A program made the position numbers and the translations under genes. The notes beneath the pieces are model-generated. The model was not told where the DNA came from and ran no database searches. It saw only the letters and a program-made list of their open reading frames with translations. A stretch of DNA of 51,174 nt. Origin: Archaeoglobales archaeon. GTDB taxonomy: Archaea > Halobacteriota > Archaeoglobi > Archaeoglobales > Archaeoglobaceae. The stretch covers positions 1 to 51,174 of the forward strand of contig JARQZL010000026.1 of assembly GCA_029984855.1 (NCBI GenBank), written 5' to 3'. Shown here one piece after another: positions 20,916 to 28,686 of this stretch; positions within the stretch are counted from its first letter, which is position 1; each line of letters starts with the position of its first letter.

Positions 20916-21104
20916 ATGCGCAAGCTTGGATGTAAATTCATTATAAACAGTGTCACGGGGATAAAAACAGTTTATCCCCTCAGAACGTTGTTAAAATTGG
21001 GAAAAGTCCTTCAAGAGGTGAAAAAAATGGGTGATGACCATGATAGTCGGGAAGCACATAATTGCAGAGCTGTATGGAGTTCCAAAGGAGCTAATTTCAA
21101 ATGA
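20916..21104 (+). CDS. Possible 62-codon leader frame overlapping speD
   Basis: ATG 20916 lies about 23 bases after a TATA-like CTTTAAAAAT, where leaderless translation would begin. The frame encodes 62 residues starting MRKLGCKFIINSVTGIKTVY and runs 65 bases into speD in another frame. I find no family match. It could be a regulatory upstream frame for polyamine synthesis, or coincidence, since the region is small and unprotected by homology evidence. Confidence 0.25.
   Translation: MRKLGCKFIINSVTGIKTVYPLRTLLKLGKVLQEVKKMGDDHDSREAHNCRAVWSSKGANFK
20957..20979 (+). promoter_or_regulatory. Perfect 9-base inverted repeat in the speD leader
   Basis: GGGGATAAA (20957-20965) and TTTATCCCC (20971-20979) are exact reverse complements around a five-base AACAG loop. 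The element is downstream of the inferred transcription start and about 60 bases before the speD start codon, so it could fold in mRNA or serve as a repressor site. Confidence 0.45.
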
Positions 21105-21378
21105 GAAGGCTGTCAGGGAGATAGTGGAAGATGTTGTGAAGAGGGCGGGATTGACCAAGGTGGGCAGCGTCTATAAGCAATTCAACCCGCATGGCGTAAC
21201 CGGTATTGTTTTGATTGCTGAAAGCCATGTGAGTATACATACATGGCCGGAGTACGAACTTGTAAACCTCGACGTATTTACATGCGGGGATACAGGAAAA
21301 GTGGATGAGGCGTTTGAGCTATTTCTGAAGCGTTTTAAACCAAAATCTTACAGGCATTATATCCTGGATAGAGGCTAA
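21040..21378 (+). CDS. speD: S-adenosylmethionine decarboxylase proenzyme
   Basis: A 112-residue class 1B AdoMet decarboxylase, which supplies the aminopropyl donor for polyamines. The chain begins MIVGKHIIAELYG. The proenzyme cleaves itself at the Ser in ESHVSIHTWPEY, generating the pyruvoyl cofactor. A conserved VFTCGDTG follows. Three start codons lie close together (GTG 21031, ATG 21034, ATG 21040); I prefer 21040 because GGGTGAT is correctly spaced before it and the N-terminus matches homologues. It is two bases from bpsA, which uses its product. Confidence 0.93.
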   Translation: MIVGKHIIAELYGVPKELISNEKAVREIVEDVVKRAGLTKVGSVYKQFNPHGVTGIVLIAESHVSIHTWPEYELVNLDVFTCGDTGKVDEAFELFLKRFKPKSYRHYILDRG

Positions 21379-21380
21379 AA

Positions 21381-22391
21381 ATGATGGACCGTATTCGCAG
21401 ACAGGTGCTACAGGCAATCGATGGAGAGGTCTCAGTTTACAGATTGATAGATTCACAGGATTCAAGTCTTCCTGAATTCTTCGAACTGCTTCAGGCTATG
21501 GAAAAGGAAGGGCTGATAGCTGTAAAGGGTGGAAAGGTCTCGCTGAGAGAGAAGGGAGTAAAACTCAAGAGACTTGCAAGTGCGGACGTTGAATGCAGAT
21601 GCTGTAGAGGCACAGGATATATGATAAGGGGGTTTTTTGAAGACGTTATGAAGCAATATATAAACATTGCCAGAGAAAGACCTGAGGCGATTGAAGTTTA
21701 CGATCAGGGATTCATAAGTCCGGAAGATGTTATGAGAAGGCTTGAATTTGTTTACGAAAGAGGAGACCTGCCGACGAAGATATTTGTGGTTGGAGATGAT
21801 GACCTCTTTAGCATTGCGGCATCTCTCACAGGCATACCAGATAAGATTACGGTTGTTGAAATCGATGAAAGACTTGTGAACTTTATAAACAGAAAGGCAG
21901 ATGAGTATGGCCTGAACGTTGAGGCTGTAACTTACGACGTCCAGCAGGCATTCCCGGATGAATACAGGAAGAAGTACGATGTTCTTGTTACCGATCCCGT
22001 CGAGACAATTCCCGGCTTGAAGCTCTTTCTTTCAAGGGGAGTTTCCACGCTTAAGGGCAGGGGATGTTCCGGGTACTTTGGAATTACAACGCTTGAAGCT
22101 TCAAGGAAAAAATGGTATGAAATCCAGAGAATGATATACGATATGGGCTTTGTAATAACCGATATAAGAAGGAAGTTCAGTGTCTATCCTTCTGAAAGCA
22201 AGAACTTCTTCCGATTTCAGGAGAAGTTACCGATAGTAAGCAAATTAGGGGCTGCTGTTGACTGGGACTGGTACACCTCATCGCTTTTCAGAATAGAATC
22301 TGTTAAGGAGCCAAAACCCCTCGTGGAAGGTGAGATGATAATCGATGAAAAAGTTTACAAGGATGAGGAGAGCTGGGCTACCCCATATTGA
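21381..22391 (+). CDS. bpsA: Branched-chain polyamine synthase BpsA
   Basis: A 336-residue aminopropyltransferase that makes N4-bis(aminopropyl)spermidine, a branched polyamine of hyperthermophiles. An N-terminal winged-helix-like domain precedes a small Cys motif (CRCCRGTGYM). The catalytic domain contains FVVGDDDLFSIAASLTG, whose GDDD is the signature of this family, then VTVVEIDERLVNFI and LVTDPVETIPGLKLF. It is two bases after speD, which makes its substrate, decarboxylated AdoMet. A second in-frame ATG at 21384 is possible. Confidence 0.93.
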   Translation: MMDRIRRQVLQAIDGEVSVYRLIDSQDSSLPEFFELLQAMEKEGLIAVKGGKVSLREKGVKLKRLASADVECRCCRGTGYMIRGFFEDVMKQYINIARERPEAIEVYDQGFISPEDVMRRLEFVYERGDLPTKIFVVGDDDLFSIAASLTGIPDKITVVEIDERLVNFINRKADEYGLNVEAVTYDVQQAFPDEYRKKYDVLVTDPVETIPGLKLFLSRGVSTLKGRGCSGYFGITTLEASRKKWYEIQRMIYDMGFVITDIRRKFSVYPSESKNFFRFQEKLPIVSKLGAAVDWDWYTSSLFRIESVKEPKPLVEGEMIIDEKVYKDEESWATPY

Positions 22392-23196: not shown

Positions 23197-24234
23197 TTAA
23201 CTCCTGAAGAGTTTTTGGGAGATTAGGGCTGCAGGATACAGCATTGATAGAGAAGCGATGCAGGCTGCAACGGCATACATCTCAAAGGGAGAGCCGGCGG
23301 CAATTCTCGTGACAAGGCCCACAGGTGTGAGAGGGGATGAGAAGAAAAGGGGAATTATGGCGATAACAGCAAGAGAGAATACAAGCTGGGCTTTCTCTCT
23401 GTCACCCGCAAGTGTTGCAATGGATGCAATTGAGATGAATATGGCACATGTTACAAGCGATATCACCACAACAAGCAGGTAATTGTGAACCTCCACATGG
23501 TTCAGGATAAGCAGCACTATCCACGTGGGTGTTAAAGCGGCAGAGAGAATCATTGCTGCAAGCATCTTGCTCGTTATGAGTTCGAGAGGTGTTAGAGGAG
23601 AGGCAAGGAGAACATAAGATGTCTTTGATTCAACCTCCTCCGTTATCAAATCAATATACATTCCTGCAACAGTGGCTGCGGTAGTGAGCATGAGCAGCGG
23701 AATGAGAGCAACGTATATCAGCTTGAATGGAATGGAAGCACCTTCGGGAACATCCTCTTTCTTGAAACTGGTAGAGTAGATTTTCAGTCCGGAATCCCCC
23801 GGAATTCCCCTTAACTCCCTCATCCTCTTCTCATATTCAATGAACCTGTTTTTGAGAAACACTGAGGCCTTTATTGAGGTAATCTCTTCTTTTGGGAGGT
23901 ATATTCTTACAAAATTTGTTGAACTGAGGTTTTCTTTTGGCAACCACACAATAGCTTCTATCTTCCCTGCCTTAAAATCTTCCATGGCTTTCTGTATTGA
24001 GTCGTACTTCACAGCTTTCAGCACACTTTCGAGGACTGGAGCATCGCCTACAAGACCCACGTTTGCAGTTTCTCTGATGTCTGCATAGGTGGGGTTGTAT
24101 AGGACGAGAAGACCGAATGTTAGGACGGAAGCAAACATTGCAACGAAGAGCTGCAATGCTACGGCCATCAGGAATGTCCTCTCTTTCAGCACACTTCTCA
24201 GATCCTTCAACGCAATAGCGAGGACTCTATGCAA
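23197..24234 (-). CDS. ABC-2 type transporter permease
   Basis: A 345-residue ABC-2 permease. It has one N-terminal membrane segment, then an extracytoplasmic domain of about 130 residues (from NPTYADIRETANVG to GDSGLKIYSTSF), then five membrane segments beginning LIYVALIPLLMLTTAATV. The cytoplasmic loop ITEEVESKTSYVLLASPLTP is typical of NatB-like exporters. It overlaps the larger permease gene by eight bases. The divergent ATPase gene at 25941 completes the transporter. Substrate is unknown. Confidence 0.8.
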   Translation of the reverse strand: MHRVLAIALKDLRSVLKERTFLMAVALQLFVAMFASVLTFGLLVLYNPTYADIRETANVGLVGDAPVLESVLKAVKYDSIQKAMEDFKAGKIEAIVWLPKENLSSTNFVRIYLPKEEITSIKASVFLKNRFIEYEKRMRELRGIPGDSGLKIYSTSFKKEDVPEGASIPFKLIYVALIPLLMLTTAATVAGMYIDLITEEVESKTSYVLLASPLTPLELITSKMLAAMILSAALTPTWIVLLILNHVEVHNYLLVVVISLVTCAIFISIASIATLAGDREKAQLVFSLAVIAIIPLFFSSPLTPVGLVTRIAAGSPFEMYAVAACIASLSMLYPAALISQKLFRS

Positions 24235-25894
24235 GTACCATCACCACCGCCATGTTGTACAGGAAATGAACGAGTGATGCCACGGAAATTGCAAAAGATG
24301 GTCGATGTCTCAGGAAAGCGAAGAGAAGCGTTGTAGAGATGTGGATGATGAGGGGAAATACAAAGAACTGAGCAAGTAATAAGTTATTGTACTGTGTGGC
24401 TATGTTGAGAACGAGTATTAGTTTTTCTCCGGTAAAAAAGCCGGCTCCACATGCAATTGCGGACATATATGGTAATAGGTTTCTTTTCACAGCCGCAAGC
24501 ACTATGGATGCTTTGAACGTTTCCTCAACAATTGCAACGATCCCGATAAACACGGCAACCGAATAGTAAGGTGGAAGTACGAAGAGAACGGAAAGCAGCA
24601 TGAATTCAACCATGAAGACAAATGGAATGGCGGCTATGGCTACAAGAAATACGTGCCACTCCTTCCCCATTAGGGATGAAAGGGCAAATACTGCTTTTTC
24701 TGCAATACCTCTGGATGAGTGGGCTATCTCAGGAGTCATGGACTTGGCAGCTAAGAGAGATAGAACGGCGGCCATAGCATAGAACTGGAAGGTGGAAAAG
24801 AGATATTCCTTTACGCTTACCCTCTCACCTTCGAAGCTGGAAAGCATGAGCGTTATTGGAGAGACCTTGCTCACAGGTATCGTTCCAGAGAAGACGGCAG
24901 GAATGAAGATATAGGCTGTTACAAAGAGCGAGGTTGATATAACAAAGAAAGTCATCTCTTTGTAACTCCTTGAGTTAATAGCAAAAAACGCCTGAAGTGA
25001 TGAGAAGAAGAGGATTACAGGGATGACATATATGAGAGCTGCAATACTTTTTCCGAGGACGATGGATACAGCAGCAACTGATGCTATTGAGAGAACGAGA
25101 TACGGTAAGAACTTGCCCATCAGTACTGTGTGGGGTGATGCAGGGGTTGAAAGAAGAACATCGAGTCTTTTTGTAAGCCTGTCCTCTATGAGCGAAGACG
25201 AGAATATCTGTGCAGCGAAATAAGATGGAAGGATAAAGAAAAAAGCATAAATGAGCTTGCCAAGGAGATTCGGAGGAGAGAAGTTCCTCGGGGTTACGTA
25301 CTTTTCCTGGGCACTTATTACCGTTATAGGTTTTGTAATCGGCGCTGGCGGTTTTTCTGGAGTCTTAATGACCGGTATTTGAGCTTTTGATTGTTGAGCC
25401 TCCTTTTGCTCGCCTTTTATTCCCCCTTCTCTCCCCTGCCTTGCCAGCTCAATCTGGTAGCTAATTTCTCTTTTCACATATTCCACTGAAATAAAAACAG
25501 GAAAAGCCTTGCTACCGTACCTCTTGTAGAGTTCTCTGTCAAAAAGTTCCTGAATTATTGATCTCAGCTCGTCAGTTGCAGCAAGAGATTTTTCAGATTT
25601 ACCGGTAACTATGAACAGATTGCCAAGAGCAGCATCAGCTTTTCCTGCTTTAACGAGCGCAATACTTTTTTTGAGTGGTAGGGGGTAGCAGAGAAAGTGC
25701 CTTTCATTTACAGCATAGGGTCCTGCAACGACGTACAGCTTGTTGTCTGACTTTACACCCTCTATGGCTGAAAAATATGCGGAAATAAGGGCTACTGATG
25801 AAAGAAGAATCAGGACAAGAATTAAGCTTTTTGTGTACTTTTTCTTTGACTTTCTGAGCTCAAGGCGTGAGATGCTGAATAACCTCATTATCAT
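24227..25894 (-). CDS. ABC-2 permease fused to a PrsW-like intramembrane protease domain
   Basis: A 555-residue protein. Residues 1-410 form an ABC-2 permease with a large external loop containing an Ala/Pro/Lys-rich linker, and the loop EDRLTKRLDVLLSTPASPHT. The C-terminal 130 residues show PrsW-family (glutamic intramembrane protease) motifs in order: VEETFK (EExxK), GAGFFTGEK (FxxxE), HISTTLLFAF, and HFLYN (HxxxN). PrsW enzymes cleave membrane proteins such as anti-sigma factors in bacteria. The fusion suggests export coupled to proteolysis of a substrate or of the transporter. It overlaps the second permease and is divergent from the ATPase. Confidence 0.78.
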   Translation of the reverse strand: MIMRLFSISRLELRKSKKKYTKSLILVLILLSSVALISAYFSAIEGVKSDNKLYVVAGPYAVNERHFLCYPLPLKKSIALVKAGKADAALGNLFIVTGKSEKSLAATDELRSIIQELFDRELYKRYGSKAFPVFISVEYVKREISYQIELARQGREGGIKGEQKEAQQSKAQIPVIKTPEKPPAPITKPITVISAQEKYVTPRNFSPPNLLGKLIYAFFFILPSYFAAQIFSSSLIEDRLTKRLDVLLSTPASPHTVLMGKFLPYLVLSIASVAAVSIVLGKSIAALIYVIPVILFFSSLQAFFAINSRSYKEMTFFVISTSLFVTAYIFIPAVFSGTIPVSKVSPITLMLSSFEGERVSVKEYLFSTFQFYAMAAVLSLLAAKSMTPEIAHSSRGIAEKAVFALSSLMGKEWHVFLVAIAAIPFVFMVEFMLLSVLFVLPPYYSVAVFIGIVAIVEETFKASIVLAAVKRNLLPYMSAIACGAGFFTGEKLILVLNIATQYNNLLLAQFFVFPLIIHISTTLLFAFLRHRPSFAISVASLVHFLYNMAVVMVLA

Positions 25895-25940
25895 CTACAA
25901 CGAAAAAGACTAATATATGTCTGTCGCTCACATTATAATA

Positions 25941-26768
25941 ATGGTTGTGTTAAAAGTAGAGGACTTGAGGAAGAGATATGGAGATTTTGAGGCATTGAAG
26001 GGTGTCAGCTTTGAGCTTGAATCAGGAGAAATCCTCGGACTCATAGGAGAAAATGGAGCGGGAAAATCCACGATAATAAAGACTTTAACGGGATTGACTG
26101 AGCCCACAGGTGGCAGAATCGAGTACTTCGGCAAAGACTTCAGGGAATTCAGAGCTGTGAAGGAGAGTATAGGCTATCTACCTGAGGTGGACTCTCTCTA
26201 TGAGAATATGGAGGCTTTCGAGTATCTCTCCTTCTTTGCTTCTCTCTACGGAGTTAAGGACAGGATCAGGATTGAAAAACTAATGGATATGCTGAATATA
26301 CCTGAGGGAAAGCCGCTGGGGGAGTTCTCAAAAGGTATGCAGAGGAAGGTTGCAATAGCCCGTACGCTCGTTCACGACCCATTAATTCTTATATACGATG
26401 AGCCTACAGGCGGACTTGATCCGTCAACATCGCTCTTCATAGCTAACTTCATGAAAGAGCTTAAGAATGAGGGTAAGGCAATTCTTTTTTCGGCTCATAA
26501 CATGTACTATGTAGAGTCTGTATGCGACAAGGTTCTGATCCTGAAGAAAGGGGAAGCAGTATACTACGGACCAATAGACCGGCTGAAAACAGGAAAAGAG
26601 TACATAGTTCAGTACAGAGAGAATGGAAAAGTTGATAGATTTGCAACCAAAGATTTAAAGGAGCTTAATGAATTTATTCAGAACCTCACAACCTCTGGAG
26701 GTAAAATAGTCAATATATATTCTGAGGCTATGAGGCTCGAGGATATTTACTTCTCCATAGTCTCCTAA
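25941..26768 (+). CDS. ABC transporter ATP-binding protein
   Basis: A 275-residue ABC ATPase. Walker A is GENGAGKST, the signature is [14 protein letters not shown] (a variant of LSGGQ with SKGMQ, common in NatA-type exporters), and Walker B with D-loop is [15 protein letters not shown] chose ATG 25941 because a TATA-like ACTAATATATG lies about 30 bases upstream and the domain begins right after. A longer frame would start at 25917. It is divergent from the two permease genes and very likely powers them. The end overlaps the eIF1 gene by four bases (convergent). Confidence 0.85.
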
Positions 26769-27737: not shown

Positions 27738-28586
27738 TCAGAGCACTCTTGCAGTTATTTCGAGTATTTCCTCTCCATCCTTGTACAATGTGATATCTCC
27801 TCCGCTTTCAGAGACGACAACAGATATTGCATTTGTTTCTCTTGTTATTGCAGCACATGCAAGATGTCTTCCACCGAGCCCGCGTTTAAGCTTTATATCT
27901 CTGGCAGAGACCTCTATATATCGCCCGGCTGAGATTATAAACCCTTTTTCATTGAGAATGAAAACACCGTCAAGCTGGGCAAATTCCCTAATGCTTTCCC
28001 AGTTTGCCGGGTCTTTTATGTCTCTCTCCGATTCTGGATGCCCGTGATAGGGATTTGTAATGAGCTGCCTTGAACGCTTTAAAACCTCCTCAACATCGCC
28101 TATTACAAATGCAGTCCCGATAGGTCTACCTTCTCTCCCCTTCTGGGCTATGCTCAAGGCCACTGTTAGAACCGCTCGTATAACTCTTGGATCAACACGC
28201 TCTGCGCATTCAAACAATGCCCTCTGAATCTTGCTCTTGACCATATCTATAACCGCTATTCCCTTAAAGGATTCAACACTTATAACAGCAACTGCACTCC
28301 CCTCTAAGCCTATACCTTTGAAGTACAGCATTGTAGAAAGGTAATCCTTGGCCTGAGCAAGTATAATGAACCTTTCTGCAATTCTGGCAACTATGTTGTC
28401 CTGGCTTGTCTCCTCTATCGTGCTTATTGTGCTTTCAAGAAGAGTTGCATAGCTTTTTGGGGCAACGAAAATAACGGTGTCTTCGATAATTCTTTCTTTA
28501 ACATCTTCATCGGATATAACAACTATTGCCCTTGCATCCACTTTTTTCGCAATCTCTACTGCCCTGTCTATGAGAAAATCAAGCAT
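27738..28586 (-). CDS. dacZ: Diadenylate cyclase DacZ
   Basis: A 282-residue archaeal c-di-AMP synthase, which condenses two ATP. The N-terminal 150 residues form the archaeal domain (ARAIVVISDEDVKERIIEDT). The C-terminal DAC domain shows a DGA-like LDGVFILNEKGFI and the catalytic GRHLACAAITRET, which corresponds to the RHR-type motif. I chose ATG 28586 because a TATA-like GATTAAAATT lies about 25 bases upstream; an in-frame start at 28625 would add 13 residues. c-di-AMP acts in osmoregulation and is essential in some archaea. It is divergent from the universal stress protein gene. Confidence 0.88.
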   Translation of the reverse strand: MLDFLIDRAVEIAKKVDARAIVVISDEDVKERIIEDTVIFVAPKSYATLLESTISTIEETSQDNIVARIAERFIILAQAKDYLSTMLYFKGIGLEGSAVAVISVESFKGIAVIDMVKSKIQRALFECAERVDPRVIRAVLTVALSIAQKGREGRPIGTAFVIGDVEEVLKRSRQLITNPYHGHPESERDIKDPANWESIREFAQLDGVFILNEKGFIISAGRYIEVSARDIKLKRGLGGRHLACAAITRETNAISVVVSESGGDITLYKDGEEILEITARVL

Positions 28587-28686
28587 TGTATTATTCTTGA
28601 AGGTAGAGAATTTTAATCTTTTCACTTGTACACTCTTTCCTTCATTTTTAGCTTTTTAGCTTTGCACATGCAATTCGCCCTTAGCG

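Follow-up and report, generated by a model that had tools for sequence, protein, structure and literature searches.

An ABC-2 permease and a PrsW-type intramembrane protease domain are joined in a single protein of 555 residues in an Archaeoglobales archaeon. The gene lies on the minus strand at positions 24227–25894 of contig JARQZL010000026.1, of which a stretch of 51,174 nucleotides was analysed (the window), and these are exactly the limits given in the initial annotation. The fusion itself, the PrsW assignment, the conservation of the catalytic residues and the gene unit are established computationally. As to function, our preferred reading, to which we give a probability of about 0.45, is a three-gene heterodimeric ABC exporter whose built-in protease would cut membrane peptides and then expel them. 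The same fusion occurs in roughly half of the genomes sampled from the phylum to which this heat-loving archaeon belongs.

Architecture of the fusion protein and assignment of its C-terminal domain

The permease half (residues 1–395; positions 24710–25894, minus strand) contains six predicted transmembrane (TM) helices and matches PF12698 (ABC2_membrane_3) over residues 162–353 in a Pfam scan (E 3.3e-11). The large outer loop mentioned in the initial annotation is found as a segment of about 165 residues (46–209) between TM1 and TM2. The PrsW-type domain (residues 411–555; positions 24230–24664, minus strand), assigned by hhalign, AlphaFold2 (AF2) and an APH-1-like fold, has five predicted TM helices. 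The full-length AF2 model, built from an alignment of 28 orthologues, has a pLDDT of 79.5, rising above 90 across most of the C-terminal domain, and displays 11 long hydrophobic helices, six in the permease and then five in the last 145 residues. Positive charges occur in the short loops 471–474 and 528–531 and none in loops 438–441 and 499–511; this pattern fits a protein with its N-terminus in the cytoplasm and its C-terminus outside. According to the helix limits, the motif residues would sit in TM8 to TM11, from mid-membrane outwards. The best match of the full-length protein to a known structure is a weak one, to a mycobacterial ABC efflux pump (8k1m, E 0.03).

PrsW is a site-1 type intramembrane protease. 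Its four motifs had been read in the window protein as VEETFK, FFTGE, HISTTLL and HFLYN; all are present in that order in the C-terminal domain and, with the PF12698 match, they confirm the proposed permease/PrsW-type protease fusion. The family motifs are defined as EExxK, FxxxE, H and HxxxN/D (PMC4602095, PMC12943098). Among the 307 open frames of at least 60 codons in the window, the ordered set occurs in the fusion gene alone, and it was obtained in none of 20,000 shuffles of the C-terminal 145 residues. Conservation was assessed in 108 fusion sequences, which come from two sets sharing some species, so that independent species are somewhat fewer. In motif 1 (E457 E458 x x K461; positions 24512–24526, minus strand, as for the other three), the Glu pair, whose conservation in orthologues had been put forward as a check, is kept in 108/108 sequences, and K461 in 107 with one Arg. 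F486, E490 and K491 of motif 2 (F486xxxE490 K491; 24422–24439) are each present in 108/108. P514 and H518 of motif 3 (24341–24355) are found in 107/107 sequences where this region is covered, as are H543 and Y546 of motif 4 (H543xxY546 N547; 24254–24268) in 107/107, residue 547 being Asn (87) or Asp (20). Motif residues are the only invariant residues of the protease domain in the first set (28 orthologues), and the catalytic residues are unchanged in the 108 fusions although identity drops to about 25%. Finally, EK after motif 2 in all 108 fusions, against EN in stand-alone PrsW, is at the sequence level a clean signature of the fusion subfamily.

The window protein itself has no match to the PrsW family PF13367 in Pfam, NCBIfam or C-terminal-only Pfam scans, and no other PF13367 match exists anywhere in the genome. 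Orthologues and profiles were therefore used. At least 16 orthologues exceed the curated PF13367 cut-off (23.5 bits) inside the fusion frame, namely those of genomes G042, G047 and G005 and 13 further ones that match at the 3′ end of the frame, including G161 (38.6 bits, the best), G288 (37.0 bits) and G229 (36.6 bits). At E values up to 1, 7 of 28 orthologous domains match the family (best 1.7e-6). Thus the PrsW profile search suggested in the initial annotation fails for the window protein and succeeds, at the same position, for at least 16 orthologues. Since these pass the cut-off in the same place and the Glu pair is invariant in 108 sequences, the missing match does not refute the assignment. 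Moreover, hhalign comparison of the fusion-domain profile with one built from 14 stand-alone archaeal PrsW proteins gave a probability of 95.8% (E 8e-9), all four motifs being in register. Predicted alone, the domain reaches a pLDDT of 91.6 (AF2), and its top solved-structure match in Foldseek is APH-1 of gamma-secretase (probability 0.96, TM 0.55, E only 0.38), with Rce1 at rank 50; both are known relatives of PrsW (PMC4602095). Sequence searches of the PDB returned nothing useful. Each of these lines of evidence is moderate, and in combination they are convincing: the domain is of PrsW type.

The gene unit and its distribution

The fusion gene overlaps by 8 bases a gene for a second ABC-2 permease of 345 residues (positions 23197–24234, minus strand; PF12698, E 1.7e-12), which is likely the heterodimer partner of the fusion. 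Upstream, a divergent gene encodes an ABC ATPase of 283 residues (positions 25917–26768, plus strand; PF00005, E 4.9e-32). An ABC-2 permease associated with an ABC ATPase generally works as an exporter, and here a six-helix ABC-2 permease and an ABC ATPase occur in one gene unit. We compared 20 loci of 15–18 kb each. The second permease adjoins the fusion in all 20 and the ATPase is adjacent in 17; the three exceptions are Archaeoglobi genomes (G008, G017 and G033; loci L058, L059 and L062) that keep the fusion and the second permease and have no similar ABC ATPase within the stretch examined. These genomes may rely on an ATPase gene located at another site. At 81 further loci, a simple gene caller, which overlooks genes that overlap or are truncated, detected the second permease in 74–75 cases and the ATPase in about 63.

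The same three adjoining genes occur from Archaeoglobi to Halobacteria. Across about 100 loci, the second permease and the ATPase are the only constant neighbours of the fusion; most of the other surrounding genes have housekeeping roles and differ from lineage to lineage. The survey of other archaea and of adjacent genes called for in the initial annotation thus recovered the fusion across the phylum, mostly in this company. The examined loci contain no linked substrate gene. Genes for RDD, TrkA-N/DHH, MptE-like, PEGA, DUF4112 and PQ-loop proteins were considered as constant partners and rejected as lineage-specific neighbours. The flanking genes in the window likewise serve housekeeping functions and encode BpsA, an ApbC/Mrp-type ATPase, SUI1, DacZ, a universal stress protein, prefoldin and Rad50/Mre11-like proteins.

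Some of these neighbours can be described further. The DacZ-type c-di-AMP cyclase (PF02457 DAC, DacZ_A; positions 27738–28625, minus strand) is encoded a few genes from the ATPase, a neighbourhood common, among the 20 loci compared, only to the other genome of the window's genus. The branched-chain polyamine synthase BpsA and a neighbouring gene of 115 codons occupy positions 21031–22391 (plus strand); the product of the latter looks like a putative S-adenosylmethionine decarboxylase. In other Archaeoglobi, the two genes are often found next to the exporter. On a Haladaptatus megaplasmid (L151:5995-10038), the exporter unit is followed by DUF4112 and 20S proteasome subunit A/B genes. The location of this copy on a plasmid suggests that haloarchaeal versions of the unit can move.

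The fusion protein has matches in 32 of 60 relative genomes. Its profile matches 157 of the 295 genomes of the phylum, about ten of them weakly and probably not as fusions, and 146 of the 234 good ones; by far most matches have E values below 1e-70, with usually one full match per genome. Named carriers belong to the Archaeoglobales (Archaeoglobi), Methanophagales, Methanoperedens, Methanomicrobiales and Halobacteria. At each of the 80 named loci, permease and PrsW domain are encoded as a single uninterrupted protein, two of these loci being cut by contig ends. In a tree, the sequences cluster by host group, the Archaeoglobi (including L104, an Archaeoglobus record) and the Methanomicrobiales forming one group each. 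Because the tree follows host groups, the fusion is best regarded as an old system of the phylum, passed on mainly by vertical descent. Some genera of the window's own family (g6 and most of g10) lack the fusion, which is therefore dispensable. Many fusion-bearing genomes also have a stand-alone PrsW and others, including those of the window's genus, have the fusion only; the two are thus not simply interchangeable.

Proposed function and alternative readings

In the exporter that we propose, the ATPase (25917–26768), the permease (23197–24234) and the permease-protease (24227–25894) would act as one machine, the two permeases probably forming one heterodimeric pore. The PrsW-type domain would cleave a transmembrane segment or a membrane-bound peptide, for which a signal-peptide remnant, a small membrane protein or a pro-peptide are candidates, and the fragment would be handed over to the exporter and removed from the membrane. 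The permanence of the fusion and the strict selection on its catalytic residues argue for a shared substrate, or for linked substrates, of cleavage and transport. The initial annotation had suggested either cleavage followed by export or control of transport by the protease. Both ideas are reasonable because the fusion is real, ancient and catalytically conserved. Against the exporter proposed here stand the lack of a linked substrate gene, the 3 of 20 loci in which the ATPase gene is not adjacent, and the fact that APH-1, the best fold match, is a relative without protease function.

Coupling of this kind has precedents in Firmicutes. In Staphylococcus aureus, the production and export of peptides cut from the leaders of lipoproteins require both Eep and EcsAB (PMC7157817). 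When Ecs is lost, RasP no longer carries out intramembrane proteolysis, and given this effect Ecs has been proposed to clear peptides out of the membrane (PMC2996298). From these two cases we propose a one-complex version for the archaeal fusion. More tentatively, the unit could be a self-contained "cut-and-extrude" exporter in which fragments pass laterally into the pore, providing a phylum-wide clearing or secretion route and possibly a source of signalling peptides. Archaeosortase A (TIGR04125), whose cut-off anchors might need clearing, was considered as a functional partner and rejected; it is present in 285 of 295 genomes, so its co-occurrence is uninformative.

It is rather unlikely that the protease instead regulates the exporter or a signalling protein, with a site-1 cut in a membrane regulator, the transporter half as sensor and no export of the fragment. 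Sensing through a transporter is known from Bce-type systems, which would fit. So would the activity of the one functionally characterised PrsW, which cuts an anti-sigma factor (PMC4602095, PMC12943098). The loci argue the other way, as no linked regulator is found in any lineage. To our knowledge archaea also lack ECF sigma/anti-sigma pairs, which further weakens a regulatory role.

We hold it improbable that the PrsW-type domain does not cleave at all and has a structural or substrate-binding role, like APH-1 in gamma-secretase, within a conventional ABC exporter that moves ions, lipids or drugs. APH-1, itself not a protease, is the closest solved fold, no substrate is linked and the fusion is undivided in all loci examined, all of which this reading would accommodate. 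Nevertheless, the motif-1 Glu pair, the motif-2 Glu and the two His do not vary across 108 sequences, and such invariance is not expected of a scaffold.

A dedicated system for maturation and export of a bacteriocin or pheromone, like the PCAT transporters or SagE with SagGHI, appears very improbable. The partner permease does resemble SagH weakly (E 2.6e-4), yet no precursor, modification or immunity genes were seen among open reading frames of at least 60 residues at about 100 loci, a size limit below which shorter peptides could be missed. The mainly vertical inheritance, the single full copy usual in each genome and the housekeeping surroundings also speak against it. The comparison with bacteriocin or peptide export made in the initial annotation is therefore not borne out: across about 100 loci only the ATPase and the second permease are constant, without bacteriocin-type genes. 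Finally, a C-terminal domain unrelated to PrsW, with its motifs arising by chance, would agree with the missing Pfam match of the window protein and is practically untenable: the orthologues scoring above the PF13367 cut-off already refute it, and it is opposed by the weaker orthologue matches, the hhalign match, the practically invariant motif residues, the APH-1-like predicted fold and the frame and shuffle counts.

For the cut-and-export reading that we prefer, the setting is of interest since both the disposal of membrane peptide remnants and the secretion of peptide signals in archaea are poorly known. With exporter and protease covalently linked across an archaeal phylum and all catalytic residues kept, coupling of cleavage to export becomes testable in one complex.

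Comparison with known systems

Our literature search found no paper describing a PrsW-ABC fusion. The RefSeq record inspected, that of the Haladaptatus orthologue, carries no name beyond "ABC transporter permease subunit", so annotators may be missing the protease half. Fusions of ABC permeases with CPBP proteases are already known and named in NCBIfam (NF041647, "ABC_perm_CPBP"). They likewise combine, within a single polypeptide, an ABC permease and a protease of the same superfamily, whereas the window fusion is not a member: membership requires more than 435 bits over the whole protein, and the window locus has no match even at E 10. It has EExxK and FxxxE where CPBP (Abi/CAAX) proteases have EExxxR and FxxxH. 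The protease end of this model also has two other, weak matches in the window's genome (G000:C126:516-791 and G000:C35:22055-22486), which are probably separate CPBP proteases.

Bacillus subtilis PrsW (YpdC) and the stand-alone archaeal PrsW proteins (PF13367, M82) carry the same four ordered motifs in membrane helices. Unlike these, the fusion domain is placed behind a six-helix ABC-2 permease, is shorter (five helices), has an invariant Lys in place of Asn after the motif-2 Glu and has no anti-sigma partner. PrsW also occurs in multidomain proteins with toxin or PilZ domains (PMC3482391, PMC12943098), where partners and domain order are different and no transporter is involved. APH-1 and Rce1 share the fold of the fusion's protease domain; APH-1 is not a protease, whereas Rce1 has no His at motif 3 and no transporter joined to it. 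The parallel with EcsAB/PptAB and Eep/RasP is functional only, as no EcsB family match was found in the scan. These Firmicutes systems also combine an ABC exporter with an intramembrane protease acting on membrane peptides (PMC7157817, PMC2996298), with the difference that their protease is a separate site-2 metalloprotease, whereas in the archaeal system the PrsW-type domain is part of the permease.
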